Positions 2,300-27,881 of a stretch of DNA of 37,523 nucleotides are shown here, in pieces (the first letter of the stretch is position 1; each line of letters opens with the position of its first letter). The position numbers and the translations under genes were made by a program. The stretch covers positions 1 to 37,523 of the IMG/VR virus record IMGVR_UViG_3300034021_000889; one strand, given 5' to 3'. Under the pieces are notes generated by a model. That model was not told the origin of the DNA and searched no databases. It saw only the letters and a program-made list of their open reading frames with translations. Source of the stretch: a virus.

Positions 2300-5200
2300 G
2301 CACCGTCCGCAGCATCCTCGACAAGGTCCGTCTCATCCGCGCCCAGGTGGGCCAGCCCGAGGGCGCGAAGGCTATCGACAAGAAGGACACGGGCACTTTG
2401 TCGATGTTCGACATGCTCAGGGGTGGCGGCCCGGCCGGAGACCCGAGCCGGTCGGGCACGCTTCACGCGGAGACGCGGACGGACAAGATCGGACGCACCG
2501 AGAAGCGATGGGTTGCCGACGCCGCGATGCCCCAGGCCCAGAAGGACGCCATCGAACAAGCCAGCCAGGGCGCGGCGAAGCACGACAAGCAGGCCGACCT
2601 GCACAGGAGCGCGATTGACGCGTGGGGCGGACTCCGCACCGTCCAAGGTGCCCTGCACGCGAAGGCGCAACGCGCGCACCAGGTCGCCGCGGACGCGCAC
2701 CGGAACAGCTTGAGCGAGCGCAGCCCAGACTACGTGCCCCCGGAGCAGGTGAAGCAGCGAGCCGAGTACGCCGAGCAGGTCACACAGGCCGCCGGACACA
2801 TGGACCCGCAGGTACACCACGAAGAGCAAATGAACTACCACGGCAGGGAAGCCGAACGCCTCGCAAAGGCGAAGACGCCGAACCTCGCAGCCGTCGCCGC
2901 TCACATCCGCGCGCGCGACATGCACGACAACGCGACCGACGCTTACCGACTGGAGTCAACGCCCGCCCGGCGCATGGAAGTGTCGAGCAAGGCGCGAGAT
3001 GCGAGCGCCGCCGCGAAGCAGGCCACAGGACAGGACGGCGCAGCGCCCGCGGCGCAGCGGTACGACGCCATGCGTGACGCACAGGCGAAGGCCAGAGAGG
3101 CGAGCGACCAAGCGAGCAGGGTCGCGCCGCCCAACACCGGCGCAGCCGGCAAGGCGAAGCCCGGCAAGTCCGTGAAGTTGGGCGCGACCGCCGCGTCCGA
3201 ATTTGACCTGCTGCGCGAGCTGCACGAAGACCCGGACGGCCTGGAAGACGACGAGCGCGAGGCCATTGGCCACCTCGTCGAGCACCACGACCCTGACACT
3301 GGGCGTTTGCATCTCCCCGACGATCCCGACGTGGCGGACAAGATGGCCGCGCACGTCGCGTCGATGGCATCGTCGTACAGCGACCAGATCGACGACCGGA
3401 GCGGTGAGGGCTCACACGCCGAGGGCCGAGGGCACGCCAAGCGGGCCATGACCGCGCTGGAGAAGTTGCGCGACACCCTCGACGCGCACGCAGCGGACCT
3501 CCGCGCCAAAGCGACAGCGGGCGCAGCCACTACGAAGAAGCAGGAGCACGAAGCCAAGGCCGCGATGCACAGAGCCGAGGCCGGCAAGCTCCCCGACGAC
3601 GACGTTCGCGTGAAGCTGCACCACGCCGCCGCCGACGAGCACGACCGCGCCGCGCGATGGCACGGTTCGACGCACATCAAGAACTGGGATCGCGCCGCCG
3701 CCATGACGGGCGAACGGGCGAACGGCCTCAGTGCCGAGGTGGAGGCCACCGACGCTCGACTGAAGGCCAACGCAACCGCCGCTGCGGAGGCCAAGCTCAA
3801 GAGCGCGACCCACCCCAGCACGAAGGTCGCCGCAGAGCACGACGCCAAGGCCGCCGAGCACAAGGCCGCCGCCGCCAAGGCCGGGCGCAACAGTTCCGAG
3901 GAATCACAGCACCTCTACGCCGCCCACCTGCACAAGCAGACCGCCCACCTGCACCGGGAAGTCGCCGCCGGCCGAATGGGCGAGGCCAACGCCAAGGCCG
4001 CCAGTCTGGGCGCCAACGAGGCCAGCGAAATCGCGAACAGGACCAGCGCGCCGAGCATGACGCACCAGGAGGCCCAGGCCAAAGCCAGGGAGCACGAGCA
4101 GAAGGGCGAGCACTTCGGGACGATCAACGGCGGGTATGGCGCTGCGATGTACCACGCGAAGGCCGCTCAGGCGTGGGCCGGAGCCGCGAAGATGCTTCGC
4201 GAGGGCTCTCTCGCGCCAGAGCACGCCGCCGGCTACCTCGACCACGCCCAGCAGCACAGCGACAGGGCGGCGAAGGAGGAGGCCGAGACGCCGCACCGCA
4301 TCAGAGCCCGCGAGGCCGCAGCCGTCCACGAGCACACGGCCAAGCAGCACACCAAGGCCGCCAACGAGGCGACGAAGACGGGCGAGAGATCGGCGCACCT
4401 CGAAGCCGCCAAGCTGCACACCCAGGCGGCCAGGGACGCCCACGGGTACAGCAACTCGACCTTCGATCCGAACGAGATCAGCAACCGCAAGGACTACGAG
4501 AGCAGCGTCGTCGCCGCACTGAAGCAGTCCGAGCACGCCAACACGCTCAGTGGCGCGAAGCCGGCTCAGGCCGCCGCCGAGCCGCAGAAGGCCCCGGTGG
4601 CAGCGAGCTTCGACGTCCAGAAGAACACCGGCCGGGAAACGGTCAACGGGCACCGCATCGGCAACTTCGGCGTCCACGACGACGCCCCCTTGCACGGAGG
4701 GCTCGCCACCGTGACGCACATCCCGACCGGATTGCGTGTCGCGAGCGATCTCTCCCCGGAGGATGGACTCGCGCTCGCCAAGCACCTACACGAGAAGGCC
4801 GGAGACGCGCACGGAACGGCAGAGTTCGGCACCCCGCTGAACAAGGATCACCCCGACAGCAAGCGCGTGCTCGACGCGCTCCAGAGCGCGACCGCGAAGC
4901 CCAAGCCGGCCGACGTGGCGAAGGCGATCCGCAACAGCGCCGCCGATCACCGGGCCCGGCAGGATGCCGCCGTGACCTACGCCGAGCGGGCAGAGACCCA
5001 CCGAACCAAGGCGCGCGAGGCGACCGACACGCGGGTCCGCGAGGCCCACAGCAAGGCCGCCGAGGCCCACGACAAGGCCGCCGTCGAGCTGCGCAAGTTC
5101 GCCGGCAACTGGTCTGCGACCCACGACGCCGGCAAGGCGAAGCAAACCGCCGAAGACGCAGAGGCGCAGGCCCGACGAGACGCGACGGCCAAGCCGCCCG

Positions 5201-5577
5201 AGCCGAAGCCAGCCGCCGAGGCCAAGCCCGCCAAAGTCGAGCCGGTGGCGCGGGCCATGGAGGCGCTGCGCAAGATCCTGCCCCACCGCGACGCCGACCC
5301 GGAGGACCGCTACCGCGCCCGTTGGCACATCCCGAAGAAGGGTCACATGCACGCGACCTCCATCGAGAACCACCCCGAGATGCAGCGGGCCAAGGTGAGC
5401 CCCAGGCACATCGCCGATGCCGTCAAGCGCCTTCAGATGCGGGGGGAAGTCGAGCAGATGAACACGTCGGCCGCCGGTGGCGGCTACTCCGTGCGTCGCA
5501 CGGGCGACGGCGGCGTAGATCCCACCGTGGACCGACGCCGACGGGACGAAGAGATGGACCGCCTACGCTCATCGTGA
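2296..5577 (+). CDS. Large Ala/His-rich helical polyvalent-type protein with N-terminal 25-residue module
   Basis: This 1093-aa protein is of unknown function. Residues 24-41 are a header (KAIDKKDTGTLSMFDML), and residues 49-73 are the 25-residue module shared with four later genes. Most of the rest is long charged helix rich in Ala, His, Lys, Glu and Asp, with many A-E-H-D-x-A-A-like heptads that look like extended coiled coil. Two less repetitive islands may be folded: about residues 300-400 (starting FDLLRELHEDPDG) and 770-870 (starting SFDVQKNTGRETVNG). The C-terminus (about 1005-1070) is basic with a possible winged-helix-like patch. No catalytic motif is visible. The start overlaps the MuF stop (ATGA). 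Its size and place after portal and MuF resemble ejected inner-capsid proteins; that role is inference. Confidence 0.8.
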   Translation: MSTVRSILDKVRLIRAQVGQPEGAKAIDKKDTGTLSMFDMLRGGGPAGDPSRSGTLHAETRTDKIGRTEKRWVADAAMPQAQKDAIEQASQGAAKHDKQADLHRSAIDAWGGLRTVQGALHAKAQRAHQVAADAHRNSLSERSPDYVPPEQVKQRAEYAEQVTQAAGHMDPQVHHEEQMNYHGREAERLAKAKTPNLAAVAAHIRARDMHDNATDAYRLESTPARRMEVSSKARDASAAAKQATGQDGAAPAAQRYDAMRDAQAKAREASDQASRVAPPNTGAAGKAKPGKSVKLGATAASEFDLLRELHEDPDGLEDDEREAIGHLVEHHDPDTGRLHLPDDPDVADKMAAHVASMASSYSDQIDDRSGEGSHAEGRGHAKRAMTALEKLRDTLDAHAADLRAKATAGAATTKKQEHEAKAAMHRAEAGKLPDDDVRVKLHHAAADEHDRAARWHGSTHIKNWDRAAAMTGERANGLSAEVEATDARLKANATAAAEAKLKSATHPSTKVAAEHDAKAAEHKAAAAKAGRNSSEESQHLYAAHLHKQTAHLHREVAAGRMGEANAKAASLGANEASEIANRTSAPSMTHQEAQAKAREHEQKGEHFGTINGGYGAAMYHAKAAQAWAGAAKMLREGSLAPEHAAGYLDHAQQHSDRAAKEEAETPHRIRAREAAAVHEHTAKQHTKAANEATKTGERSAHLEAAKLHTQAARDAHGYSNSTFDPNEISNRKDYESSVVAALKQSEHANTLSGAKPAQAAAEPQKAPVAASFDVQKNTGRETVNGHRIGNFGVHDDAPLHGGLATVTHIPTGLRVASDLSPEDGLALAKHLHEKAGDAHGTAEFGTPLNKDHPDSKRVLDALQSATAKPKPADVAKAIRNSAADHRARQDAAVTYAERAETHRTKAREATDTRVREAHSKAAEAHDKAAVELRKFAGNWSATHDAGKAKQTAEDAEAQARRDATAKPPEPKPAAEAKPAKVEPVARAMEALRKILPHRDADPEDRYRARWHIPKKGHMHATSIENHPEMQRAKVSPRHIADAVKRLQMRGEVEQMNTSAAGGGYSVRRTGDGGVDPTVDRRRRDEEMDRLRSS

Positions 5578-5618
5578 GCGCGATTGACCAGCCCTCGAAA
5601 CGTCGTCAGGTTACACGC

Positions 5619-6794
5619 ATGAAGTACGAGATCGTTTTCCGCCAAACGTTCAAGGACATGGGCGAGGATCGGACCCACGGTGGGCACCTGCACGCCGAGC
5701 AGCGCACAGACAGCCGCGGCCGGAACATCACCCGATGGGTCCGCACACCCGGCTCAGACGGGGGCGGCGTGCTGCGGTCGGCCAAGAACCGCGAGTCGCT
5801 CGGCGACTTCCACGACGACGCGTTGCACGCTGCCCGGCACAACATCACCGGCCAGATGCGCGCGCACTCGATGAGATCGACGCCCGATCCTCATCGAGTG
5901 CGAGCTGCGGGGCACGCGCTCGACGCCATCGACAACGAGCAGGCGAATCGCGGACGTGCCGCCGGGCAAAGCCGAGGGTGGATCGACGCCGCGCCCGCGT
6001 TGCCGAAGGACACGCAGAGCGCGCACCAGCGCGCACCAGGCGTCTACAAGCCCGGCCGCGCCGCGTTCCACGACGCCATCGTCAAGAAGTTCATGCACGG
6101 CAAGGCCCCGGCCGCGCCTGGCGAGAAGCCGCACGCCCTCGTGATGATGGGCGGGCCCGGGTCGGGCAAGAGCAGCATCCTCAAGCAGCTCGGCATCGAT
6201 CTGGACAGCCACGTCCACATCGACCCGGACGAGATCAAGCAGCACATCCCCGAGTACCACGTCGCGCGCGCCCACAACGCGAAGAACGCCGCGTTCATGG
6301 CCCACGAGGAGAGCAGCGACGTCGCGAAGAAGCTCCGCGACCATGCCATCCAGAATCGCCACCACGTCCTGATCGACGGCACCGGCGCCAACGGCCCGAA
6401 GCACAAGGCGATGGTCGAGGACCTGAAACAGCGCGGCTACCACGTCACGCTGGCCATGCCGCACATCAGCAAGGAGGAGGGCTTGAGCCGCGTGGCGAAG
6501 CGCGCCGAGGGCAACGGCCGATTCGTCCCGAGCGATGTTGTGGGCGGCGCCTACGACAAGATCCCGGGCAACTTCCACAAGGTCGCCGCCGCCGCAGACG
6601 ACGCCTACCTCTTCGACAACCACGAGAAGTCCCCCCGCCTCATGTACAAAAAGGAGGGCGGCCAGGAGCGCCAGGGGCCGGACGTTCACACCGATCTCCA
6701 CGCTCAGTTCCTCGCGGCACACGGCCGAGGCGACGAGGGCGGTAAAGCACTACGCGCGAGCCGCGCGTCTGGGCGGCATCACAGTAGGCACTGA
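5619..6794 (+). CDS. Zeta-toxin-like P-loop kinase with N-terminal shared module
   Basis: This 391-aa protein begins at ATG 5619; the frame is open far upstream only because it shadows the previous gene. Residues 17-41 are the shared module. The kinase domain follows: Walker A GGPGSGKSS at 178-186, then I-D-P-D-E-I-K-x-x-I-P-E-Y from about residue 201, the Asp-rich stretch after the P-loop typical of Zeta/PezT toxins, and L-I-D-G-T-G near residue 252. Zeta toxins phosphorylate UDP-N-acetylglucosamine and block cell-wall synthesis; related kinases in phage proteins may act on other substrates. No epsilon-type antitoxin gene is recognisable beside it. The 41-base gap upstream has only a weak ribosome site (CAGG). 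A perfect 12-bp inverted repeat lies inside the gene at 5864-5901. Confidence 0.8.
   Translation: MKYEIVFRQTFKDMGEDRTHGGHLHAEQRTDSRGRNITRWVRTPGSDGGGVLRSAKNRESLGDFHDDALHAARHNITGQMRAHSMRSTPDPHRVRAAGHALDAIDNEQANRGRAAGQSRGWIDAAPALPKDTQSAHQRAPGVYKPGRAAFHDAIVKKFMHGKAPAAPGEKPHALVMMGGPGSGKSSILKQLGIDLDSHVHIDPDEIKQHIPEYHVARAHNAKNAAFMAHEESSDVAKKLRDHAIQNRHHVLIDGTGANGPKHKAMVEDLKQRGYHVTLAMPHISKEEGLSRVAKRAEGNGRFVPSDVVGGAYDKIPGNFHKVAAAADDAYLFDNHEKSPRLMYKKEGGQERQGPDVHTDLHAQFLAAHGRGDEGGKALRASRASGRHHSRH
5864..5901. repeat. Perfect 12-bp inverted repeat inside the Zeta-like gene
   Basis: GCACTCGATGAG at 5864-5875 is repeated in inverted form at 5890-5901 with a 14-base loop that can itself pair partly (ATCG with CGAT). 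It lies in the linker between the shared module and the kinase domain. It could be a protein binding site, an mRNA hairpin or chance; no run of T follows, so it is not a typical terminator. Confidence 0.5.
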
Positions 6795-6827
6795 AGCGCG
6801 TTGCTGGCGCCTGGCCCCAGCCGGGAG

Positions 6828-6839
6828 TAGAGTTGAGCC
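6828..6839 (+). promoter_or_regulatory. Possible leaderless-type -10 element (TAGAGT, 6 bases before ATG)
   Basis: TAGAGT fits the TANNNT form of a -10 box and ends exactly 6 bases before ATG 6840, so transcription would begin at or next to the start codon. A TTGCTG at 6801 is too far (21 bases) to be a good -35. The same hexamer occurs at 28415. This is a pattern match only. Confidence 0.3.
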
Positions 6840-7043
6840 ATGCCGAAACCCACCACAGCAATCGACGGATTCCGAAGCAAAATCCTGGCAGCCTTCGCCA
6901 AGGGTCACGCGGCCCACGAGGCCGAGCGCGAGGCCCTGAAGCGGTCTCCCAAGCGTTACCGGGCCGGCGAAGGGATCGACGAGTCCTGCACGCTCAACGA
7001 CAGCCACATCGGGCCCATCGGAGAGAACGCCGCCGGCAATTGA
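6840..7043 (+). CDS. Small hypothetical protein (67 aa)
   Basis: I do not recognise this protein. It begins MPKPTTAIDGFRSKILAAFAKG, has a charged helical middle (residues 10-40, rich in Ala, His, Glu, Lys and Arg) and a short acidic to neutral tail containing one Cys. It is placed between the Zeta-like gene and the methylase-helicase gene. The start is chosen at ATG 6840 because a TAGAGT hexamer lies 6 bases upstream and GGGAG is about 14 bases upstream. A second ATG at 6833 opens another frame and was discarded. An antitoxin for the upstream kinase is conceivable from size and position, but nothing in the sequence shows it. Confidence 0.55.
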   Translation: MPKPTTAIDGFRSKILAAFAKGHAAHEAEREALKRSPKRYRAGEGIDESCTLNDSHIGPIGENAAGN

Positions 7044-7074
7044 CCCGGCGGCGGGCATGGCGGATTCTCGCGGC

Positions 7075-7086
7075 GAGGTCTGCCCC
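7075..7086 (+). promoter_or_regulatory. Ribosome binding site deciding the start at 7087
   Basis: GAGG at 7075-7078 stands 8 bases before ATG 7087. The in-frame ATG at 7057 has only a GGCGGG stretch directly in front of it. The spacing favours 7087, which also gives a hydrophobic N-terminus (MFFIRIEGL) followed by the first QLALF motif. Confidence 0.45.
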
Positions 7087-10000
7087 ATGTTTTTCATCCG
7101 CATTGAAGGTCTGAAGGCCGAGCAACTGGCGCTTTTCGGCGGGGCAACACCCGCCTCGAAGCCCCGCCCGACGTCGGCGCCGGCCGGGCAGCTCGACCTC
7201 TTCGGAGGCGACCCGACCCACGGCGGCCACCTGGTCGAGCGCGTGATCTTCACCAAGGCGGGGCACCAGCAGACCTTCCACGTTCTGCCGGTCGAGGCGC
7301 CCAAGGCGAAGCGCAAGGCCAAGCCCGCCATCGGGCCCGACCTGTTCGCCTGGGCAGACCAGGCCACGCCGAGCCAGGTGGCGAGCGCCCTGGTGGACGC
7401 GCACCAGCAGGCGAAGCGTCCCGAGGCGACACCCGAGGACATCGAGCGCCGCGACCAGCTCCTCACGGCCGCGCAGGCACACCAGTCCAACCGGCAGAGC
7501 GAGTCGCCCGAGGTCGCGCCGCTGGCCGATCCGACACCGACTGCAACGCCGGCCGGCACCACGCCCGAAGATGCGCCGGCCGGTACGATCTTCCACGGAT
7601 ACACCTCCGATTACAGCACCCAGATCCAGTGGGCGAAACGCGAGGACGGCCAGTGGTTCCGCCGCGGGCAGGACAAGACGCCGCGTGGATACCGCTGGAG
7701 CGGGTGGGTCAAGGGCGGCCCGCCGAACGAGCGCGCGAGCATCCACGGAAGCGGCAACGTAGGGCCCACGCGCATGGCCCGGCTTCCCCAGGAGGGGGGA
7801 GCCGACGAGGCCATGGCCGGGGCGAAGATCATCCCCAACCGCCACACCAAGACCGGCGAGGCGTTGTGGACGGTCCAACTTCAGGACCGTGTCAGCAGCG
7901 AGACCTACCAGGAGATCCTCGCCCACGCGAAGGGCCTGGGGGGCCGCTACAGCAGCTTCAGGGGCAACGGCGCGATCCCCGGCTTCATCTTCAAGACCGA
8001 GGACGCCGCCAGAGCGTTCACCGGCCAGCAGGCCGAAGAGGAGGAGCAGGAGGCCACCGAGCCGGCCGCGGTCAACCCTCCGGTTTCCCCGGAGAGTTCC
8101 CCGGCCGAGACGCCCGAGGCCAAGCCCGATGCCGTCACGCCGACCGCCGACCAGATCCGCAAGGACCCGACCGACGGTGGGCGCCTCCAACCTCGCAAGA
8201 TCACCGGCAAGGACGGCGTCACCCGGACGTACTACGTCTCCCAGGACGTCGAGGGCGACGTGGCGGCCAAGCTCGCCGCCAATCCCGACTTCCAGCAGTC
8301 GGCCAAGGTCAACCACCGCGACAACCTGGTGTTCGCGATCAAGAAGACGGTCGAGGACATGGCCGCCGACGAGGCCGTGGCCCGCAACGAGCTTGGGCAC
8401 GCCGACGAGCACGCGAAGGGGTGGGGCCTGTTCTACTTCGACGGCCTCGACCAGATCGGACGCCAGAACTTTTTGGAGGCCGTCGCGAGCAAGCTCGCCC
8501 AGAGCGTGCGCGACCAGGAGCCGGCCAACCTCCCGAGCCGCGAGGCAGAGCCGGCGCAACTACCCGACCCGGTCGCAGAGCCCGCGGAGACCGTCAAGTA
8601 CCTGGAGAGCGCGCCCGCAGGCGCCCAGGTGACGCTGGCCCACGACGACGGGCGGCACGTCTGGGAGAAGGGTGAGAAGGGGTGGCGCCCCGAGGGCGCC
8701 CCGGATGGCCCGCCCGTCACCGACGAGGGCCTGGCGCGCGCCGCCCAGGCCGGCGCCGCGGAGATCGTGGACGGCCCTGCACCGGCGGATGCCGCCCCGC
8801 GGCGCACGCTCCAGGAATCCCTGGAGAGTTTCCGGCAGGGGCTCACGTTGACCGAGGACCAGGCCAAGGGAGACTGGACCCCCCAGCGCATGAGCCGCGC
8901 CCACCTGGTAACGAGCATCCTCGACCACTTGTGGAGCGACAAGACCGGGCCCAGCGGAGAGCCGACCGACGACATGCAGGCCGCCATGACCCAGGCGGCC
9001 GAGGCCGAGGCCGACCGCATCATCGCCGAGACGAAGAAGCCCAGGGTCGCGAAGCCCGAGGCTACTGCCAGCGGGCCCAAGGCCAACACCCAGAGCTTCG
9101 GCCGCGACCTCACCCCGAAGCAGCGCAAGGACGCCAACAGCTCCGCCGTCGAGATCATCCAGCGCGCCGTCAGCCAGGGCCGCGAGCTGACCCAGAAGGA
9201 GATGGACGAGGTCGCGCTCTACTCCGGCCGGGGTGGGATCGGCGACTCGCTCAACCAGTACTTCACGCGCCCGGACATCGCCGCGTCCATGTGGGATCTC
9301 CTCGCCCATCACGGCCTCGCGCCGGACGCAAAGGTGCTTGAGCCCGCGTGCGGTTCGGGCGTGTTTATGCAGACCGCCCCCGAGGGCGTGACCATGACCG
9401 CCGTGGAGATCGACCCCGAGGTGGCCCTGGTTGCGTCGAGCCTGCACGGAGCCCGGCACACGGTCCACGCCCAGAGCTTCGAGGAGTTCGCGGTGGCCCG
9501 CGAGCGAGGGGTGGGCGACCGCTTCGACGCGGTCATCACGAACGCGCCGTTCTGCACACGCACCGGCGACGGGGCCCGCATCCACAAGCCCGAGTACACG
9601 AGCGCCGACGCCTATTTCGTGGACACGGCGCTCGACCAGGTGAAGGAGGGCGGTCTCGTTGCGATGATCGTCCACCGCGGCGTCATGTCGAACGACGGCA
9701 TGCAGGAGTTCCGGCGCCGAATCGGAGATCGCGCCGAGCTGGTCGATGCGTTCCGGTTGCCCGTCGAGGCGTTCAAGCACGCCGACACCACCGTCGTTTC
9801 CGACGTGATCATCCTGCGGAAGCGCCCCGAGGTGGTCGCGACCGCGCTCGCCCGCGGCGGCGAGGAAGTCGGGCGAGCCCTCGGGGTGAACGACGAAGAC
9901 CTCATCTACGGCCGCTGGTTCGACGACAAGCCCGACCGCGTCCTGGGGACGGTCGGCAAGGACTGGCGCGGTTCGGATCTCGTCGAGGGCAGCGCCGACG

Positions 10001-13000
10001 CATGCGCGCCGCTCATCCGCGCCCGCGGGGTTGCATCGTGGGCGCACGGCCCGGCCGGCAAGACGATCACGGCCGAGGAGATGGCCGCGCACTCCGACGA
10101 GCGCGTGCGCGCCGCCCTGGACGCCGCGAAGGCCGACGTCGCGATTCCGACGCCGGTGCGCGGCAGCCAGACGGTGATCGCCGGGAAGACGTACATCCTC
10201 ACCCCGGGCGAGAGCGGGGCCCTGCGCTGGCGCCGGCTCGACAGCATCGACGACGCACGCGAACTGCTGCACAGCGGAGACGCGGCCCTCAAGAGTGCCG
10301 GGGATCTTGCGCTGCGGTACGGGGATCTGCGCTCCGCGATGGCCCGAGGCGACTACCTGCGGGCCCGTGGCATCCGCCGCAAGCTCCAGAAGGACCTGAA
10401 CGCCTGGGTCGAGAACTACGGCGTGCCCGCCAGGCACCCCGAGATCAACGCGCTCGCCGGCCAGGACGCGAACATCGCGCACCTGGTCGCCGCGGTGAAT
10501 CCCGACAAGACGATGGCCGACATCCTGACCTCGGACCCGGTCATCCCGCCCGCCGCCACCGGCGACCGGGCGGTCCCGGCGACGAGCGTCAGCGAGGCCG
10601 CCAGCCACCTCGCCACCCACAATCCCGGCCAGCCGATCACGGTCGCCAAGCTCCGCGAAGCGTTCCCGAGCACGGCCGAGGACGATGAGATCGTCGCCGG
10701 CCTGGTGGAGAGCGGCGAGTACGTGGACGCCCGCGGGGCCTTCGGTGTCGAGAGCGACGCGCCTGGTGTCTTGCACGCGGACGACTACGCGAGCGGGGAT
10801 CTCTTCGCTCTGCGCGACCACGAGTTCGAGCAGGCCGCGAGCGAGGACGACGCGACCCGCCAGCGCGCCGAGGCCCGCCTTGCCCTCGTGCAACGCCACA
10901 TCGACGAGCGGTGGCGTCCGCTCGACCAGGTCGAGGTCTCCGTCCGCAGCGGGTGGATTCCGCCCCACGTCATCGAGGCGTGGCTCAACAGCCCCGACGT
11001 GATCGCCGACTGGCACAAGGCCAGTCAGTTCAAGGTCACGGAGGCCGGGGGCGTCTACACGGTCTCCTACTTCGACGAGGCCAAGGGCAAGCGCGTCAAG
11101 CACAGCGGAGAGCCGGACCACGTCCCCGCCCGCAACATCCTGCGCTACATGAACCGCCTACCCCTGCACGGAGAGCGAGCCCGCGACGAGGCCGAGGCTG
11201 AGGACGAGAAGTTCCGCTCGTGGCTCGCCTCTTCGGACCTCCGAGGGGACGTCGAGGAGATTTACAACCGCCGCTTCACCGGGCAGGTCCCGAGGCGTTT
11301 GAACAGCACGCCGATGAAGATCGACGGGTTGCAGAAGGAGTTGTGGCCCTACCACTACGAACAGATCCGATGGAACACAGACCGCCGGGGCGGGATCGTC
11401 GCGATGGACGTCGGACTGGGCAAGACGTTCAACACCATCGCAACCGCGCGCCAGATGCGCGTCACAGGCCAGGCCCGCAAGGTGGCCGTCACCTGCCCGA
11501 AGTCGGTGATCATCAACTGGAGCAAGGAGATCGAGGACCTGCACCCGGGCGCGAAGGTCATGATCGTGGGGGCGACGAGCAAGGAGAAACCCAAGAAGAC
11601 CTGGCGCGACCCCACCGTGCCCGAGTACGTGGCCGTCACCGACAACGACGAGACCTTGACGAAGAAGCTCGCCGACATCGCCGCCAACGACTACGACCTC
11701 GTTCTCTTCACCTACGAAGCGCAGGCCCGCATCCCCGTCCGCGACGACAACGTCACGCGCTTCGAGGGCGATGATTTCTGGTCTCGACGAGCGTCGAAGT
11801 TGAGCGACAGCGAGGCCACGGTCGCCCAGTCCGCCGAGACCCGCCAGAAGAAGCTCGCCCAGGCGCTCGCCTCCTACCAAGCCGAGCGCGCCAAGCTCGG
11901 TTTCAACGTGAAGCAGTCCATCATCCACTGGGAGGATCTGGGCATCGACACGATGTTCGTGGACGAGGCCCACAACTTCGCCAACCTCGGGAGCCCGCGC
12001 TCCCGAGGAGGGCAGGTCAAGATGATGGGGAGCAGCTCCGACAACGTGAAGCGGGCTCACGACCTGCAATTGAAGGCCGCTCTGGTGCGCGAGCGCCGCA
12101 AGCCCGACGAGACCGACGACGCCTACCAGCGCCGCATGGACGAGAACAAGGAGCAGGGCCTCGGCGTCAACGGCAACGGCGTCTTCATGCTGACCGCGAC
12201 GCCTGCGAAGAACAGCCCGATGGACGTCTACCACCTCATGCTCCAGGCCACCCCGCAGGTCTGGCGCGAGGTCGGCGTGCGCAACCTCGAAGAGTTCATC
12301 GACCGCTACGTGGACATCGAGGAGCGGCCGATCATCAACACCGAGCAGAAGGCCGAGATGGCGAACTGCGCGGTCGGATTCAAGAACCTCATCGAATTGC
12401 GCGCGGTCATGGAGCGCGGACTGAGGCGCCGCACCGCCAAAGAGGTCAACCTCAAGGTGCCGCAGACCGAGCGCGAGGAGCACCTCGTGGACATGACGCC
12501 GCAGCAGCACAAGGCGTTCCGCGACATCCGCGACGAGTTCGAGCGCCGCAAGCTCGACAAGGACGAGCGGGTCGCCAATTCCGCGACCCTTTGGCTTCTG
12601 CACCAGCTCAACGCCGCCGGCACCGATCTGTCCCTACTCTCCGATGAGCACCCAGAGCACGCGGGCGAGTGGCGGCACAGCCCGAAGTACCACGAGGCCG
12701 TGGGCACCATCGTGAAGAACCTCAAGAGCGGGCGTGGCGGCCAGGTCGTATTCATCGACCGCAACGCCAGCCACACGCACATGAAGAATCTCCTGGTGGA
12801 GGCAGGCATCCCCGAGAGCGAAATCGAGATCCTGAACGCCACGACCGCGGCCGACGCGGACAAGCGGTACGCGGTCAGCGAACGCTTCAACCTGGGCAAG
12901 ACCCGGGTCGTCATCGGGAACACCGGGACGATGGGCGAGGGCGTCAACCTCCAGAAGAACACGAGCGATCTGCACCACCTCGACCTACCGTGGAGCCCCG

Positions 13001-14214: not shown

Positions 14215-14531
14215 CCCCCACGAAGGAGTCCGCGACCATCCTGGTGCAGATGCTTCAGACGCACCCGGCCTACTACCTGAACTTCGGGCCCTACTGGTGG
14301 ATCGTGAAGCGGTGGTTGCTGCGCCTGGGGTTTACGCGCGCCAACACCCGCCACCTGGGAACGTACACGGACCCGCAGGCCCGCGCCTGGTACACCGACC
14401 GGCCGTTTCTCAGCGCCATCGAGCAGGCGTTCGCCTACCAGGCCGAGCGCGCCCAGAACTGCCCCGGCTCGCCGTTCTGCCAGACGCCAGACGGTGAGGA
14501 CTACATCCTGGAAGACCAGGACGCCGAATGA
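14211..14531 (+). CDS. Small hypothetical protein (106 aa)
   Basis: I do not recognise this protein. It overlaps the preceding stop and the following start by ATGA on both sides, so it is very probably translated as part of a coupled set with the two giant genes. It is rich in aromatic residues in the first half (YYLNFGPYWWIVKRWLLRLGF, residues 21-41) and ends acidic (EDYILEDQDAE). The aromatic stretch is not long or apolar enough to be a clear membrane segment. A C-x4-F-C pair (NCPGSPFC) is present near residue 85. No enzyme motif is visible. Confidence 0.65.
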   Translation: MTPTKESATILVQMLQTHPAYYLNFGPYWWIVKRWLLRLGFTRANTRHLGTYTDPQARAWYTDRPFLSAIEQAFAYQAERAQNCPGSPFCQTPDGEDYILEDQDAE

Positions 14532-17500
14532 ACCCCGCCGCCCTGTTGCTCCAGCTCCAAGCCAACCGGGAAGCCGGCAAGGCCATCGACCGCAGCGACA
14601 CCGCGACCGCATCCCTGCTTCCCGCGCTGGACGCCGCCGGTGACATCGACCACGGCGGGCGGCTCCACGCCGAGATGCGAACGGACAAGCGCGGGCGGAC
14701 CCAGCATCGGCACGTCCGATGGGAGGAATTGAAGGGCGAAGACCTGGTTCACCAGGGCTACGTCAAGGCAGGCAGCCCCGCCGCGTTCGAGGCCCTGGGG
14801 GGGGACGAGTTCGCCGATCCGTCATGCGCGCGGTGCGGGGCACGGATCAAGCACGCCTACCTGACCAACCACGGGCCCCTGGGGGGCGACTGCCTGGCGA
14901 CGTTGACTGGCGACGACAGTTCGCGCGCCGCGGCGCGCCGGTTCGTGGAGAAGCTCGACAAGGCGCAGGACAGCGCCCACCGGAGCAAGCGTACCCTGGC
15001 CGTTCTGACACTCAGCTTCGACCAGCACGCCGGCCAGATTCGTGCCGACTTCCAGCTCACCAACGGCCGCCCGTGGTACGGCGCCGCTGGTGACGCTCGC
15101 CACGCGGTCATGTTCCACGCCGCCGCTTCCCAGTGGGCCGAGGCCCGAGGCTTGGAGGTGGACGAGCATCTCTCCGGGGACGAGAGCGCGCTCGCCGCCG
15201 CCAAGCGCATCGCCAGGGAGCGCCGGGCCGAGTTACAGGCCCGTGCCACCAGCAAGGCCGAGCAGGAAGTAGCCCGCATCCGCAGCGAGTCCCTCCGCCG
15301 CCTAGACGGCGTCCTGGCATTCCTGAAAGCGCCGCAGAACTACCGCCGGGCGCCCGTCGAAGCCGACTGGTTTTTCGGGCCCCTGAAAGCCCAGGCGGCA
15401 GACGCGATCCGAGAGCAGGTTGGCTTCCGCGTTCGCAGGTTCCGCAACAGTCGCGGCGACGAACTGACGGAGGTGTCCGCGCGTCAACAGGGGCGCGGCC
15501 CCATCGTCGGCATGTTCCCGCCCGACGACTACGACGACCTCATCGACCGAATCCAGAGCGCAGGCTTTGAGGTGGAGAGCCAGGAAGCCGCCAAGGCCCT
15601 GCCGCTCGACCCCCCGCCGCAGGTCCGCCGGCCGCAGGAGCACCACCACCACGGCAGCGTGAAGGTGCCGGGTCTGCCGACGGTGGACGTCGAGACGCCC
15701 GAGGGCACCGTGCGCCGGGGAAAGGGCAAGGACGGGGAGCCGTGGGCCGTGCTCATGCCCGCGCACTACGGCGAGTTTCGCGGCACGCTGGGCGTGGACG
15801 GCGACGCCGTGGACGTGTTCGTGGGCCCCGAGCGCGACGCGCCGACCGCGTGGGTCATCCGCGCGAAGGACCCGACGACAGGACGCTACGACGAGGACAA
15901 GGTCATGGTGGGGTTCGCCACCCGCACCGAGGCCATTCGCACCTTCCGCGCCTCGTACAACGTGCGCGGCGTGCTGGGCGAGGTCACGGGCGTCCCGGTC
16001 GCCCGTCTTGGGGCGCTCCTCGCCGATGCGAGGCACCGCGGTCTCCCGCTCAACATGCACAAGGCCGAGAGCCGCGAGCCGCCGCCGGCCGGGCCCGACT
16101 CTTCCCTGGACGACGCCTGGCGACGCCTGGAGCATGTCCGCCAGCAGATCGCCGAGCTGGCCGACACGCACGAGGGGGGGAAAGCCATCGACAAGAAGGA
16201 CACCGCCACCACGAGCATGTTCGACCTCATGGGCGTGGGCGATCCGAGCCACGCCGGCCGACTTCACGAGGAGACCCGGACGGACGCGACCGGGCGCACC
16301 CAGAAGCGGTGGATCGCGTCGCAAGAGGCGGAGCCCGAAGGCACCATCCGGCATGGCGACCTTGTTTCGCGCCCCGCCACGGTGCGAAGTGAGCACGGCG
16401 AAATGATGGGCGGTTCTGGCAACGCCTACACCCCAGACGGCGAGGCGTTGATCGCGCTCCCGCAACCGGGATTCGTGATCGGTGACGTGGAGATCGACGC
16501 AGCGCACCGTGGAAAGGGCCACGGACAGGCCCTCTATCTCCGGGCGATGGCCGAGCACGGGAGGCTCTACTCCTCGTGGCCAGTGAGTAAGGATGCGTTT
16601 CGCGTTCACGACGCCCTCGTCCGCAAGGGTCTGGCCACGCGCCGCAACGTCGAGACCGACGGCACCACGTTCACCGTTCTGGAGCCGACTGGGCAAGCCA
16701 CGACGCCGCCCGAGGGTCTGGTGCAGATCGGCGAGCGAGCGCCCCGCGGGCGCGCGCCGACGCCCACGACCCCAGGCATGCGCGCCCAGGGCCGTCTCGA
16801 CGGACTGGGCCACGAGCCGAGCCCGCCGCCGGCTCACCCCGAGCCGTCTCTGCGCGACTACGACACGATCCTGGTGAACAGCTCCGCCGGCAAAGACAGC
16901 CAGGCGATGCTCGACTACGTCGTCGCGAAGGCGCGCGCCGAGGGTGTGCTCGACCGCGTCGTCGTCGTGCATGCCGATCTGGGCAGGGTCGAATGGGAAG
17001 GCACACGCGAGCTGGCCGAGGCGCAGGCCAAGCACTACGGACTGCGCTTCGAGGTGGTGACGAAGACCAAGGGCGACCTCATCGAGCAGATCGACCAGCG
17101 CGCCGTGGACCTTCAGCAGCGCAGTCACGACGCGGCCACCCTCGCCGCGGCCGGGTTTCGCACTTGGGGCGATCTGGCGGGGGCGAGCGCCGAGACACTG
17201 GCCGGGCTGATCGGCAAGGCCCAGGCGGACGCAGCGCAGCCGACCGAGGAGCGAGCTGCCAAGCTCAAGCAGGCCGCAGAGCGCAAGCTCAAGGGCGGCA
17301 AGGCCGCGACAGACCCGGTGGACTTCGGCAAGGAGATCGCGTGGCCGTCGAGCGCGTCGCGCTACTGCACCTCCGACCACAAGCGCGGTCCCATCCGCAC
17401 GCTCATGACGCGCCTGACCAGCGAGTTCGACCGCAAGGGCGCGCCGGTGCGCATCCTGAACTGTATGGGCCTGCGGGGCGACGAGAGCAGCAACCGCGCC

Positions 17501-19057
17501 AAGATGCCGACGTTCGAGCACGACGACGCGGCGAGCAACGGCAAGCGTCATGTGGACGAGTGGTTGCCGATCCACCACTGGAATGAGGGCGACGTCTGGC
17601 GCCGCATCCGCGACGCCGGCACCCCCTACCACGGCGCCTACGACCTCGGGATGCGCCGGCTTTCGTGCGTGTTCTGCGTGTTTGCCACCCGCGACGACCT
17701 GAAGATCGCCGCCCACGCCAACCCGGCCCTGTTCCGCGAGTATGTCGCCCTGGAGCGCCGCGTGGGGCACAAGTTCCGGGCGGACCTCGCGCTGGCCGAA
17801 CTGCACGACGCGATGGCCGCGGACGACGACCGCACCGAGGCATCGAAGGCCGCCGAGCAGATGCGCCTCTTCGGTGACCCGACCCACGGCGGCCACCTGC
17901 ACGTCGAGGTCCGCACCGACAAGAGCGGCCGCACCGAGCGCCGCCACGTCCGCACCGGCTCGTTGCACACCGAGATGGGCCACGCGGGGGCGCCCGCGCC
18001 AGGCGAGCGCGGGCACATCACCCTCACGCCCGAGCGAGCCGAAGCCGAGCGCCGGGCCGGCAACATCATGGAGCACGTCGGGCGCATCTTCGACGGGGGC
18101 GAGGTACACCTCATCGAGGGCGCCATGCACGACGCCGGGCACACCCGAGAGTGGGCGCCGGACGAGAGCGGGGACGAAACTCCGTTGACCATTCGAGACG
18201 ACGAGCTGCCCGGTCTGCTTGGGATGCCCGAGTGGAGCCCGGAGGACGCCGCCGACGCTGTTGCTCTGGTTGCCGATTCAACCGCGCACGGTGGGGTCAT
18301 GCCCGGCGCCGTCGTGCGCGAGGTATTGGCGGACGCCATCGCGCCGGCCGGCAAGCTGCGACTCGTCAACGTGTCGCTCGACGAGGCCCGCGACTTTGTC
18401 GCCAAGCACCACAGCCAGATGCCCGAGATGAACCCCCGCGGGCTGATCTACGCCGTGGGGTGCATGAAGGGCGGGCGCCTGGTGGCCGTCGCGACCGCCG
18501 GCACGCCGACCGGGCGATGGGGCAACGGGCGGGTGGACCCGCGCAACATTCTGGAGCTGACCCGCATCGCGTCCGACGGCACCACGAAGGGGGCGTCGTC
18601 GAAGCTCGCCGCGCGCATGATTGACCTCCTCGACCGCTCCAAGCGGGGCGACGCCGATGCCCCCGCGCTGTTCGTGACATACAGCCTGGGGACCGAGGAC
18701 GGCACGACCTACCGCGCGCTGCGAGAGAAAGGTCTGCGACCCGTGGCGCTGGTCCACGGCAAGGCCGCCGGTGGGGGCGGGGCCCGGTCAGGCAACCGCC
18801 TGGGATACGCCGAGCCCGACAAGATCCGATGGGAGGCCGGCGCCGCGGCAGGCCCGGCCCGCTGGGATCTGCTCGAAGGCGCGAAGGCCGGACCCATCGC
18901 CAACGCCCCCGGCACTGATCCGCTACTTCCGCCCGACGAGGCTGCCAAGAGCTTCGGCGTCGTCGTCGCGTTCAAGGCCATCGACGAGGCAGATCGGGCA
19001 ATGGCCCGAGGTACTGCTCCAGGTCGCCCTGCGGTTCAAGTAGCCGCGGGCGATTGA
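14528..19057 (+). CDS. Multidomain polyvalent protein: zinc site, pyrophosphatase-like, GNAT, PAPS reductase-like, XF1762-like acetyltransferase
   Basis: This 1509-aa protein looks like three concatenated units, each opening with the shared module. Unit 1: header KAIDRSDTA (18-26), module (39-63), a C-x2-C-G...G-G-D-C zinc-like motif (100-122), then a pyrophosphatase-like domain (about 375-510) with DGDAVDVFVG. Unit 2: header KAIDKKDTATTSMFDLM (about 552), module (572-596), a GNAT-like domain with HRGKGHGQAL (about 612-720), then a PP-loop domain with NSSAGKDS (about 785-792) and C-V-F-C near 1045, as in phage PAPS reductases. Unit 3: QMRLF (1111-1115), module (1117-1141), then an XF1762-like acetyltransferase region (about 1279-1425) with ELTRIASDGT and VTYSLGTEDGTTYRA. 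Substrates are unknown; PP-loop relatives activate nucleotides with ATP or handle sulfur (DndC). Start by ATGA overlap. Confidence 0.85.
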   Translation: MNPAALLLQLQANREAGKAIDRSDTATASLLPALDAAGDIDHGGRLHAEMRTDKRGRTQHRHVRWEELKGEDLVHQGYVKAGSPAAFEALGGDEFADPSCARCGARIKHAYLTNHGPLGGDCLATLTGDDSSRAAARRFVEKLDKAQDSAHRSKRTLAVLTLSFDQHAGQIRADFQLTNGRPWYGAAGDARHAVMFHAAASQWAEARGLEVDEHLSGDESALAAAKRIARERRAELQARATSKAEQEVARIRSESLRRLDGVLAFLKAPQNYRRAPVEADWFFGPLKAQAADAIREQVGFRVRRFRNSRGDELTEVSARQQGRGPIVGMFPPDDYDDLIDRIQSAGFEVESQEAAKALPLDPPPQVRRPQEHHHHGSVKVPGLPTVDVETPEGTVRRGKGKDGEPWAVLMPAHYGEFRGTLGVDGDAVDVFVGPERDAPTAWVIRAKDPTTGRYDEDKVMVGFATRTEAIRTFRASYNVRGVLGEVTGVPVARLGALLADARHRGLPLNMHKAESREPPPAGPDSSLDDAWRRLEHVRQQIAELADTHEGGKAIDKKDTATTSMFDLMGVGDPSHAGRLHEETRTDATGRTQKRWIASQEAEPEGTIRHGDLVSRPATVRSEHGEMMGGSGNAYTPDGEALIALPQPGFVIGDVEIDAAHRGKGHGQALYLRAMAEHGRLYSSWPVSKDAFRVHDALVRKGLATRRNVETDGTTFTVLEPTGQATTPPEGLVQIGERAPRGRAPTPTTPGMRAQGRLDGLGHEPSPPPAHPEPSLRDYDTILVNSSAGKDSQAMLDYVVAKARAEGVLDRVVVVHADLGRVEWEGTRELAEAQAKHYGLRFEVVTKTKGDLIEQIDQRAVDLQQRSHDAATLAAAGFRTWGDLAGASAETLAGLIGKAQADAAQPTEERAAKLKQAAERKLKGGKAATDPVDFGKEIAWPSSASRYCTSDHKRGPIRTLMTRLTSEFDRKGAPVRILNCMGLRGDESSNRAKMPTFEHDDAASNGKRHVDEWLPIHHWNEGDVWRRIRDAGTPYHGAYDLGMRRLSCVFCVFATRDDLKIAAHANPALFREYVALERRVGHKFRADLALAELHDAMAADDDRTEASKAAEQMRLFGDPTHGGHLHVEVRTDKSGRTERRHVRTGSLHTEMGHAGAPAPGERGHITLTPERAEAERRAGNIMEHVGRIFDGGEVHLIEGAMHDAGHTREWAPDESGDETPLTIRDDELPGLLGMPEWSPEDAADAVALVADSTAHGGVMPGAVVREVLADAIAPAGKLRLVNVSLDEARDFVAKHHSQMPEMNPRGLIYAVGCMKGGRLVAVATAGTPTGRWGNGRVDPRNILELTRIASDGTTKGASSKLAARMIDLLDRSKRGDADAPALFVTYSLGTEDGTTYRALREKGLRPVALVHGKAAGGGGARSGNRLGYAEPDKIRWEAGAAAGPARWDLLEGAKAGPIANAPGTDPLLPPDEAAKSFGVVVAFKAIDEADRAMARGTAPGRPAVQVAAGD

Positions 19058-19088
19058 GCCGCGGCGCGGCGCAGGGTACAACGGCCGC
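19054..19088 (+). promoter_or_regulatory. Candidate sigma70-like promoter, possibly leaderless
   Basis: TTGAGC (19054-19059) and TACAAC (19077-19082) are separated by 17 bases, each matching the sigma70 consensus at four positions. The -10 ends 6 bases before ATG 19089, so the transcript would begin at or beside the start codon. It overlaps the stop of the previous gene. Prediction only. Confidence 0.4.
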
Positions 19089-22000
19089 ATGGCCCAGCCC
19101 GCGCAGCTCAACATTTTCGGCGGTCAAGATCCCATCCGCAACGGCGGCGATCCTTCGCACGGCGGGGCCCTTCACCAGGAGCGGCGCACCGACAGCCGAG
19201 GAAGGACCGAGACGAAGTGGGTCCGTGACCCCAACGACCGACGCACCGTGGACTTGGAGAAGCTGATCGCACTCAAGGAAATGGGCCGCCGGGTGGACCG
19301 GCCGACCCTGTTCCGGTGGGCAGCCGGCCGGGTGAAGCACGACCCGGACACCTGGACGGCCTACCGCAAGTCCACAGCCGAGGAGACCCGCCAGGAAGGC
19401 GAGCAAGAACTGCGTCGCCGGTACGCCTGGCATCAGACGTTCGGCGAGCACACGCCGTTTCACCCCGCAGCGATGAGCGATCACATCACCGGCAGCTTCG
19501 AGGCGGAGGCCGCGAAGGCCGTCACGTTCTACCTCGCCGTGATCTTCGCCGAGGGTGGCAAGGCCGGCCCCATCGCCAACCGGCCGGGCCTGGTATTCGA
19601 CTACATGAGCCGCCGTTGGAAGCGGGTCGAGCCCCACGAGGAGGGCGTTCACCTCGACGAAGAGGCCGGGCAGGCTCACGTCGTCCCTTGGAAGCCGAAG
19701 CGCGACAAGAATGAGACGATGAGCCAGGAGGACTGGCAGGGCTTCATCGACGACGCGAACGAGCCACTCCACGAGCGGGCCGCGAAAATGAACGCCACAC
19801 TGGCGCACTACAAGGCGGGGCACCTGGAGTTCAAGAACCCCAGGGGCGACGGCCACGCGGTCATCATCCCGGATGCGAGCGAGCCGGGCCGCTGGCGTTA
19901 CTCCGAGTACGACAAGAGTGGTTTCTCATCGCACACGACTCACGACACCCCAATGCAGGCCGCCGCCGCCGCCGGGGAGGCCGGTTTCACCGAGCCGGCG
20001 CCCGGCAGCCTGGATCGGCTTTCGCAGACCGAGGAGTGGGATCGCGGGACTCGCTCCGCCAAGATCAACCAGCTTGGCGGAGAACTGAACTGGAAGGGGC
20101 ACCACGAGGCCGACCTGGCGGTGCGCAATCACTACGCCCGCCACGGCTGGAGCGCCGAAGCCTACCAGCGCATCATGCAGCCCGACGTCCTGGCCGCCGT
20201 CCGCGCCGGCCAGGTGCATCCCGAACTGCTCAAGGCCATCGCCGATCACCGCGAGGGTTTCAAGGCCGCGCCGAAGCTAGACTTCGGCGAGACGGCCCCG
20301 TCCGGCGAGCGGTGGATTACCGTCCGCCCCAACGGACCCGACGCCAAGGGTGTCCCGGTCCTGGTGCAGGTCCACCCCCACAACCCGCGCCAGGGCCACA
20401 TCATCGGCGGCGCCGGGGGCAAGATGAACCTGCGCCGGCTCAACCTCAAGACCCCGGAGGAGTACCGGGCCGCCGCCGCCGCGCGACGCAAGAACCGACG
20501 CAAGAGCGAGAGCACGCAGGTTGACACAGGCCAGAGGGCCGCGCTCGAAGAGGTCAAGGGCGAGCACCAACAGCGCCGCAGGGCCGCCGCCGCCCAGGTA
20601 CTCCGCCACGCCGGGCATCACGAGCTGGCCGACAAGATCGCCGCCGGCCCGCTGGCAGGCCAGGAGAGCGAGCACAAGGAGGCCGTCGCCGACGGCTACC
20701 GCAAGGTTCGCGTGCTCATGGCCAACGCCCGCCGAACGCTCGCCCAGGACACCGACGCCCGCGAGGCCGCAGGTCTGGGGGAGCTTCCGGCGACGAGCGG
20801 AGACGGGGGAATCGGGGCGAGCGACATCGCCGGCAGGCAGGTCATGCAGGGGGGCCTCGACTACAAGCGCGACCGGGCCGCCCTGAGCGACCAACAGGCC
20901 GATCTCGCCCGCGCCCAGGCCCTTCGCTCGCGCCTGGACGCCGATCTGCAACACGGCGAGCCCATCGACGCGCTCACCACAGCGCAGCGGTACGCCCGCG
21001 CCGCGAACCTTACCCACCGCGACATCGAGGCCGCGGGCCCCGTCGAGATCGCCGCGTTCGCCCGGCTGGCCAGCCGGCGCCTGAAAGCGTTCCGGCGGCT
21101 CCAGGAGGCCGTCACCGAGGCCGGCGGGGACAACACCGCGCCCACCATGCCCGACGAGGCTCGCGAGGCGATGGACGACATGGCCGCGGTCGTCAGCGGC
21201 AGCGGGCAGGATGCCATCGACGCCATGACCGATCCCGCGCGGAACGAAACCGCGCGCAAGGGACTACAGGCCGCCGTGGACCACGGCCTCATGGACCCGC
21301 AGCGCGAGCGGGACATGACGGCCCGTATCGAGCAGGCGCGCCGACAGTCCGCCGGGGCTCCCGAGCTTTCGCAGCTCAACCAGGAGCACGTCGAGTCTCT
21401 CCCGGCCCGCGCCATCGCCATCGTGGCCAACGACGCCGCGCACGCGATCCGCCGCATGCGCACCGCGGCCCCCGAGGATCTGCGCAAGCTCGCCGAGCAG
21501 GTGGGCGAGGAGGTGCCGACCATCAAGGGCGCCGCCGATGCGCTCGGCGAAGAGGCCCTGATCTCCGGCGAAGCCACCGACGCACAGCGCCGCTCGTTCT
21601 TGCGCCAGGCGCTCGCGTCCGGCGTGCTCACCGGCGACGCCACACCGCCGAAGGCTGCCGCCGATCCGTCCCTCGAAGTGAACGACGGGGCAAAGGCCCG
21701 CGCGATCTTCGAGGCCGGGTTGAAGGTCAAGGGTCTCGACAAGGAGGCCCGGCGCCGCCGCAACGCCATCATGGCCGGAGACCTGGCGGGCGCCGCCTCG
21801 CAACAGTGGGAGGCCCCCCGCGGCGGAGCCAACGACCCGACGCAGCAGCTCGCCGACCACCCTTCGACCGAGATGGTCGCCGCGGTGCAAGGCGAGGTCC
21901 GCACCCAGCGCGCCCGCGCGTTTCTGGGGCAGGTCAATCAGACCTACCAGGACATCGGCCAGATGCTCGACGAGGACCAGGACGCGGCGCACGCCGATCT

Positions 22001-27594: not shown

Positions 27595-27879
27595 ATGGAC
27601 GCCGATCACACCCGCGAAGCGCGCGACCGCGTCGAGGCGAACCTCGCCCGCGTCGAGGCCGTGCGCCGCCGCGCCGTTCAACACGGCCACATTCACCGGG
27701 TCGGAGTCATCGGGCCGCGAATCGAGGCCCTGCGCGAGGAGCGTGCCGCGATGGAGCGCCAGATCGGGACCGACCCCCGACACTGGCACGAGGACGACGT
27801 GCGCGCGCTCCAGGCCATCGACCAGGAGTTGCGCGGGCTGATGCTGACCTACCACGCCGATCACACGAAGGGGACTTGA
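27586..27879 (+). CDS. Small helical hypothetical protein (97 aa)
   Basis: I do not recognise this protein. It is almost entirely charged helix (for example EARDRVEANLARVEAVRRR at residues 9-27, and a second helix IEALREERAAMERQIG), consistent with a short coiled-coil hairpin, and ends HADHTKGT. It follows the helicase gene after one base, with a G-rich stretch as a possible ribosome site before ATG 27586; ATG 27595 is an alternative start. The frame is open upstream from 27442 but that part overlaps the helicase gene and is discarded. Position suggests co-expression with the polyvalent block or the small zinc proteins. Confidence 0.6.
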   Translation: MDPMDADHTREARDRVEANLARVEAVRRRAVQHGHIHRVGVIGPRIEALREERAAMERQIGTDPRHWHEDDVRALQAIDQELRGLMLTYHADHTKGT

Positions 27880-27881
27880 GG

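Follow-up and report, generated by a model that had tools for sequence, protein, structure and literature searches.

Genes and repeats at the locus

We analyzed a stretch of viral DNA, IMG/VR virus record IMGVR_UViG_3300034021_000889 (37,523 bases, 69.6% G+C; hereafter the window), in which a 25-residue module recurs in large proteins encoded between a portal gene and a capsid gene. As an initial annotation of this DNA had reported, there are eight 25-codon copies, all on the + strand, gap-free and distributed over five open reading frames (ORFs):

2440-2514, + strand: module copy 1, in the N-terminal region of protein 2296-5577; leave-one-out E-value 5.4e-10
5667-5741, + strand: module copy 2, N-terminal part of the Zeta-type kinase protein 5574-6794; leave-one-out E-value 6.8e-10
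7210-7284, + strand: module copy 3, diverged, N-terminal part of the DarB-like protein 7057-14214; leave-one-out E-value 0.011
8164-8238, + strand: module copy 4, strongly diverged, internal; leave-one-out E-value 0.24
14642-14716, + strand: module copy 5, opening the InPase segment (segment 1) of 14528-19057
16241-16315, + strand: module copy 6, opening the segment with the PAPS-reductase domain and a sub-threshold GNAT match (segment 2) of 14528-19057
17876-17950, + strand: module copy 7, opening the Mom-like segment (segment 3) of 14528-19057
19149-19223, + strand: module copy 8, N-terminal part of the helicase protein 19089-27584

When searched against six-frame pieces of the window, a profile of the eight copies recovers these eight, and the best other match has an E-value of 0.29. 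Leave-one-out E-values range from 1.6e-12 to 6.8e-10 for all copies except those at 7210 and 8164. The annotation had singled out the 8164 copy as diverged, which is correct, but the 7210 copy has diverged too. Similarly, the R-T-D and G-R elements of the proposed consensus are invariant in the other six copies and do not hold in these two. Ten positions in all are invariant across the six, with codons that differ by eye, and the back-translated core L-H-x-E-x-R-T-D has 6 matches versus 0 in 100 dinucleotide shuffles. Five of the eight copies start at most 52 residues from the protein start, two head later segments of 14528-19057, and the 8164 copy is internal.

Three contigs related to the window were available for comparison: G001 (80,435 bases), which is near-identical to the window and adds a terminase gene upstream; G002 (64,571 bases), a relative with 82-92% protein identity across four proteins; and G003, a 7.7-kb fragment. 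An AlphaFold2 model based on an alignment of 17 module copies (window, G002 and G003) has strands at L26-T32 and T38-R44 in the query numbering, with a D-x-x-G-R turn between them. Mean predicted local distance difference test (pLDDT) scores are 78 for residues 21-30, 90 for residues 31-40, 67 for residues 41-50 and 70 overall. The strand-turn-strand hairpin that the annotation had suggested is thus supported, and we regard the module, with moderate confidence, as a predicted two-strand beta-hairpin around this turn.

The portal protein is encoded at 1-1038 (PHROGs match) and is followed by ORF 1040-2299, which has no family match and may be MuF-like. Among the module proteins, 2296-5577 has no Pfam domain above cut-off, 5574-6794 has a Zeta-toxin domain, and 7057-14214 is a DarB-like N6-methylase/SNF2 helicase (Pfam N6_Mtase, SNF2 and Helicase_C; tblastn E-value 4e-30 against DarB of phage P1). 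Helicase_C is also above the Pfam cut-off in 19089-27584, so the claim that the module proteins share no other domain does not stand; a ParB part that had been proposed has no Pfam match. Nor is the module the only shared element, since several of the proteins also share the short motifs described below. A Ulx-like gene at 14211-14531 (PHROGs) lies directly 3' of the DarB-like gene, a gene order found in P1 and in Thermus phage Lalka8. Further downstream are a small ORF at 27876-28163, between the helicase and head genes, with an FmdB-like match (E-value 2.7e-4), and the major capsid protein (MCP) gene at 30360-31847. The large multi-domain module proteins near the portal gene fit the description of polyvalent proteins.

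The annotation had proposed that the module is a tag for packaging and ejection, for processing or for a common partner. The nearby portal and capsid genes, the DarB- and Ulx-like members and the N-terminal placement do fit ejected proteins. Candidate signals for processing and for a partner exist, namely K-[A/S] and QxxLF, but they lie upstream of the 25-mer and are not the 25-mer itself. The reading that we prefer, with just short of even confidence and on the basis of sequence, is that the module may be one part of a compound N-terminal front-end of head-packed, ejected proteins, comprising a cut leader, a clamp-docking QxxLF motif and the hairpin.

A candidate head-protease site

The first of these signals has the form E-[G/A]-x-K-[A/S]. 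We read it as a putative head-protease site because it recurs in ORFs of the head region of the window phage; a lineage-specific K-[A/S] site recurs likewise in Morganella phage Mecenats66. The following sites and related features are listed:

2359-2373, + strand: EGAKA, candidate head-protease site
7105-7119, + strand: EGLKA, candidate head-protease site
14570-14584, + strand: EAGKA, candidate site before module copy 5
16172-16186, + strand: EGGKA, candidate site between segments 1 and 2 of 14528-19057
17837-17851, + strand: EASKA, candidate site between segments 2 and 3 of 14528-19057
18875-18889, + strand: EGAKA, then GPIANAPG
19551-19565, + strand: EGGKA, then GPIANRPGLVF...RWKRV, a possible second hairpin form (by eye)
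29255-29269, + strand: EGTKA in head-region ORF 28466-29497 (putative function)
29572-29586, + strand: EGAKA in head-region ORF 29437-30321, which has four EGxK[AS] in all (the next three at 29782, 29803 and 29866)
30426-30440, + strand: a listed feature inside the MCP gene

Motif counts in the window refer to 17 chosen ORFs (11,982 residues); all patterns used here and below were picked with the sequences already in view. The pattern EG.K[AS] occurs 12 times, versus a shuffle mean of 0.52 (maximum 4 in 2000 shuffles), with seven occurrences in module proteins and five in two ORFs located downstream of the module genes and before the capsid gene; QGLKA, a loose version, is present near the start of the MCP. 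The wider pattern E[GA].K[AS] is found at most 40 residues upstream of five of the eight modules (shuffle mean 0.046, largest 2), and six of the eight copies are preceded by such a site, by a clamp-like motif or by both. In Mecenats66, where the count covers 30 of 51 coding sequences, M[LMIFAV]{1,2}K[AS] occurs 12 times versus a shuffle mean of 1.9 (largest of 1000: 7). Eleven of these sites are in the portal, the annotated protease, a scaffold-like ORF, the MCP and the helicase, which has two, one of them internal. The twelfth is at residue 10 of a NUDIX protein, and there are none in the tail coding sequences tested. In phage PHB04, sites of this kind are found in the ORFs at the protease and scaffold positions. 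The protease of phage HK97 is known to cut between K and S.

Several observations weigh against this reading of the site. The copies at 5667, 8164 and 19149 have no K-site within 60 residues upstream, 17 of the 22 E[GA].K[AS] matches in the window ORFs are not near any module, and the strict EG form is near three modules only. The PHB04 portal has no match to the leader pattern, and the PHB04 MCP has one only, at residue 405. The head protease of phage SPN3US cuts after A-x-E (PMC10052503). Finally, we identified no head protease for the window phage: ORF 28466 has no Pfam match above cut-off and an hhalign probability of 0.74% with the PHB04/Mecenats66 pair, and we withdrew the claim that it is proven to be this protease.

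The site also occurs in 14528-19057, which contains an InPase, a PAPS reductase, a sub-threshold GNAT match and a Mom-like stretch (phrog_1384, E-value 2.7e-9; Pfam Mom sub-threshold). Candidate K-sites precede each of its three modules, delimiting InPase, GNAT/PAPS-reductase and Mom-like segments. We therefore infer that it may be a polyprotein of three enzymes, each opening with a module and split at internal sites. Phage BcepIL02 has separate N-acyltransferase and PAPS-reductase genes near DarB, and together with the contents of 14528-19057 these suggest a DNA-modification set.

It is possible, if doubtful, that the K-[A/S] leader is instead a targeting peptide that stays uncut, 14528-19057 then being one multi-domain polyvalent protein. 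In the literature, a polyvalent protein is a single polypeptide that combines several domains (PMC5512222), and cleavage in the window phage is predicted from sequence, with no protease found there. However, head proteins of both the window phage and Mecenats66 have similar sites, and in 14528-19057 they stand just before each module-headed segment, which argues against this alternative.

A motif resembling the sliding-clamp ligand

The second signal resembles the motif by which proteins bind the bacterial sliding clamp, whose consensus is QL[S/D]LF or QxxLF (PMC12309361). The window has four such motifs and two degenerate forms:

7123-7137, + strand: QLALF, clamp-binding-like motif
7189-7203, + strand: QLDLF, exact clamp-binding consensus, beginning 7 residues before module copy 3
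17858-17872, + strand: QMRLF, clamp-binding-like motif before module copy 7
19104-19118, + strand: QLNIF, clamp-binding-like motif before module copy 8
2395-2409, + strand: TLSMF, degenerate form with Q replaced (copy 2440)
16208-16222, + strand: TTSMF, degenerate form with Q replaced (copy 16241)

In E. coli, QLDLF has a dissociation constant of about 6.9 nM, versus 0.8 uM for the natural QADMF (PMC12309361). Across the 17 ORFs, Q[LMI].[LMI]F matches four times, each time at most 40 residues upstream of a module, a number that was reached in 0 of 2000 shuffles. They precede three of the eight modules: 7210 (two motifs), 17876 and 19149.

We compared the N-termini of DarB-like proteins and of helicases from other phages. 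A search with a DarB alignment gave 64 viral loci, of which 59 were entered for their N-termini and 36 were left after near-identical ones were removed; the loci left out are L220 and L221, which are window relatives, and L256, L257 and L283, where the match begins far inside the protein or ends at once. A search with a helicase alignment gave 130 relatives, of which 80 viral loci were kept. The pattern Q..[LMI][FW] is present in the first 70 residues of 30 of the 36 distinct DarB-like N-termini, versus 30 of 987 background windows. By contrast, none of 59 distinct helicases of other phages carries QxxLF in the 60 residues before the conserved domain, so QxxLF is hardly a general packaging signal, and we rejected it as such. 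Because neither G001 nor G002, both possibly incomplete records, has a clamp gene (PF02767), the partner would be the clamp of the host.

Six DarB-like N-termini (L079, L098, L107, L120, L128 and L146) have, by eye, an extra Q-x-[S/N]-L-F in the linker behind a hairpin-like stretch, as if the clamp-like motif were multivalent. Among the titles and beginnings of abstracts listed, which cover few subscription papers, none concerns clamp binding by a motif in DarB-like proteins or in other proteins ejected by phages.

Clamp docking has its own difficulties. Copies 2440 and 16241 lack the Q, 14642 has only TASLL, and QxxLF is absent upstream of 5667 and 8164. The AlphaFold2 models that bear on exposure of the motif are of low confidence, and in them the segment with QMRLF is in part a low-confidence helix. 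Published work shows that P1 DarB is packaged, yet QxxLF is missing from the region of its N-terminus, and the window's second helicase (19089-27584) carries QLNIF, unlike the helicases elsewhere. In addition, homologous N-termini are not independent, and the starts of L270 and L279 look misplaced.

The same layout in other phages

In other phages, reached through the two large helicases, we found a layout that consists of a hydrophobic leader ending in K-[A/S/T], an optional QxxLF and then a hairpin-like element. In DarB-like proteins, for example, the N-terminus can read leader-K-[A/S]-Q-x-x-L-F-D-x-P, followed by a hairpin-like stretch. A leader is present in the first 45 residues of 30 of the 36 DarB-like N-termini, versus 493 of 5842 background windows. 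All 59 helicases match the loose leader pattern, versus 23% of 70-residue background windows.

A profile of the hairpin-like element was seeded with 29 sequences and applied to loci chosen by the presence of such proteins. It gave 71 matches, distinct by sequence and with E-values up to 0.05, from 51 loci. With the loose leader pattern, a leader is found at most 40 residues upstream of 68 of the 71, versus 538 of 2989 background positions (18%). The element stands directly behind the leader in 29 of the 71, and QxxLF is at most 40 residues upstream in 30; no match has both. These 30 weigh less than they might, since the seed pattern contained L/F-F and thereby favored QxxLF. Thirteen matches are more than 100 residues into their frame, several of them after the apparent end of an InPase domain (by eye), a plan like that of the window polyprotein, although some of these 'internal' matches may precede the true start. 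Two open frames, those of L262 from 753 and of L115 from 11684, each hold two leader plus hairpin-like units, again like the window polyprotein.

An AlphaFold2 model of a PHB04-type stretch has a longer hairpin (strands 13-19 and 33-39; mean pLDDT 71). We withdrew the idea that the window and PHB04-type hairpins form one family. Their hhalign probability is 0.39%, the hairpin-like profile finds nothing in the window's relatives (best E-value 300), and the 25-mer profile finds nothing better than an E-value of 0.57 in the 71 elements. As no homology of the two hairpins is detectable, the parallel is one of layout only. A search with the PHB04 front-end gave E-values of 3 to 8 in plasmids, and in phages only PHB04 itself was below an E-value of 1. 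In Lalka8, DarB has QPALF, QPTLW and QPTLW and then a similar stretch (by eye); the authors of the Lalka8 study hypothesize that its DarB and Ulx homologues are packaged (PMC11437467).

There may be a second hairpin form, (K/D)xGxIANxPGL...RW(K/T)R behind EGxK, which we recognized by eye at 18875-18950 and 19551-19640 in the window and in L030 (5160-6269, - strand). In G002, this form heads a non-Zeta ORF at the position of the window's Zeta gene. We rejected this ORF as a Zeta protein: only its first 42 residues align (14/42, E-value 0.003), and the rest is a different protein. Since it aligns with the Zeta N-terminus and differs beyond it, the front-end does move between proteins within the window's own group. 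The rejection of this Zeta assignment and that of a common hairpin family slightly lowered our confidence in the front-end model and in its more specific version given below. In L111, a stretch from 17210, GRLVPEKITRADGRSMTYWV, resembles the window copy at 8164 by eye, with a profile E-value of only 3.3.

These data bear on two further explanations. In the first, which we find unlikely, QxxLF alone or together with the hairpin is the capsid-targeting signal itself, recognized by a scaffold or portal protein, and the sliding clamp is uninvolved. For packaging of P1 DarB, its initial 30 residues are enough, with residues 6-10 implicated (PMC9024508), and the protein begins MNKLSMGVFR, loosely like TLSMF of the window. 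Moreover, the elements are at or near N-termini, and the window motifs sit on several unlike proteins, DNA-acting and other. However, the helicases of other phages lack Q..[LMI][FW] before the domain though all of them match the leader pattern, and none of the 29 hairpin-like elements that abut a leader has QxxLF at most 40 residues upstream. The second explanation, to which we likewise give a low probability, is that the hairpin is a nucleic acid-binding element that holds ejected enzymes on packaged or entering DNA. This would be compatible with the front-end model, and the module copies are rich in Arg, His and Lys; we found no relative with known DNA binding, though none was specifically sought.

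Distribution of the 25-residue module

Within what was searched, the 25-mer is restricted to the window phage and its relatives G001-G003. With the module profile, G001 yields 8 copies, G002 yields 7 and G003 yields 1. A tblastn search with 39 residues against 50,697 phage records gave a single match, with an E-value of 9. Back-translated patterns were applied to viral contigs; because these patterns fix codon ends, they miss module copies with other codons. One pattern found 29 stretches, with strong profile matches only in those of G001 and G002 and a best E-value of 0.018, over few residues, in the others. A longer pattern found 7 stretches, five from G001-G003 and two from L218 and L219. 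L218 has a partial module match (E-value 7.6e-4), partly because the pattern selects for the module, and L219 has none. Among the 80 helicase loci, strong module matches come from two only, those of G001 and G002.

The annotation had named hits in unrelated cellular proteins as a possible refutation. In 369 bacterial genomes of one class, a set centered on an arbitrary bacterial genome (L170) and searched without a positive control, the module profile had 1 match (L284, E-value 5.3e-4) and a companion search had 0. One such match in 369 genomes is the chance expectation, and L284 is therefore discounted; a loose pattern search of L284 found nothing. The annotation had also called for a profile search of phage genomes, and with the 25-mer found only in G001-G003 besides the window, the distribution is too narrow to decide the tag reading.

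That the repeats are merely the seam of gene duplication or fusion, an N-terminal coding stretch having been copied along to head genes and fused segments without present function, is quite improbable: although two copies are decaying, ten positions are invariant in six copies despite differing codons (by eye), and copies are kept in G002 and G003.

Proposed role of the front-end

The order and recurrence of the front-end elements are seen in the sequence, while the functions that we propose for them are based on resemblance to known systems. Leader targeting and cutting are proposed because P1 DarB needs no more than its 30 N-terminal residues to be packaged and because the site is shared with head proteins. 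Clamp docking is proposed because of the motif itself, which DarB-like proteins conserve and which the helicases of other phages lack before their domain.

In the front-end model, the leader ending in K-[A/S] would target the protein to the prohead, where the phage head protease would cut between K and A or S. The internal K-sites would split 14528-19057 into three module-headed enzymes. The QxxLF on the DarB-like methylase-helicase and on two other module-headed units would attach the enzyme, once ejected, to the DNA sliding clamp of the host, such that DNA-acting enzymes could work at incoming or newly made DNA. The 25-residue beta-hairpin would stay in the mature protein, with a partner that is perhaps the packaged DNA or a head component.

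A more specific version, which we put forward with considerable reserve, is that the ejected enzymes are made as pre-proteins or polyproteins in which the cut between K and A or S uncovers the clamp motif beside a hairpin, and that antirestriction methylases and Mom-like modifiers then ride the host clamp and modify DNA while it is copied. If the front-end model is true, the repeat becomes a readable address label for phage-injected proteins. It would then allow packaging and cut positions to be predicted for uncharacterized giant proteins, and it would suggest recruitment of antirestriction enzymes such as DarB to the replication clamp.

Comparison with known systems

The closest parallel is with the Dar antirestriction system of phage P1, in which the 30 N-terminal residues of DarB direct its packaging (PMC9024508). 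The likeness consists of the DarB-like N6-methylase/helicase 7057-14214, the Ulx-like gene next to it and a signal-like N-terminus; the difference is that the P1 DarB N-terminus has neither the module nor QxxLF. In addition, that study reports no N-terminal consensus among the P1 Dar proteins by BLAST (PMC9024508), whereas one module is common to five proteins in the window.

The internal proteins of phage T4 have N-terminal propeptides that are cut by the prohead protease. For likeness to capsid-targeting sequences such as those of T4 internal proteins and P1 DarB, the N-terminal position fits five of the eight module copies. With the proteins cut by prohead proteases in T4 and SPN3US, the window proteins share a leader on presumably head-packed proteins and a motif in common with head proteins. 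In SPN3US, most of the cuts found for the prohead protease take an N-terminal propeptide off a head protein (PMC10052503). These cuts follow A-x-E, whereas the candidate cut in the window would be between K and A or S. Unlike the SPN3US and T4 propeptides, the window leader is followed by a clamp-like motif and a hairpin, and a polyprotein would be divided at the internal sites.

Polyvalent proteins (Iyer et al. 2017, PMC5512222) are likewise giant multi-domain phage proteins with methylase, helicase and InPase domains. In the main text of that paper the word 'clamp' occurs 0 times, and 'hairpin', in the passages listed, refers to the InPase and ArdC-N structures.

Finally, QLDLF, QLALF and QMRLF fit the QxxLF form of the DnaN-binding motif, and QLNIF has I in place of L. 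The known carriers of this motif include DNA polymerases and Hda (PMC12309361), whereas its carriers in the window are phage proteins that are presumably ejected and that may bind the clamp of the host.

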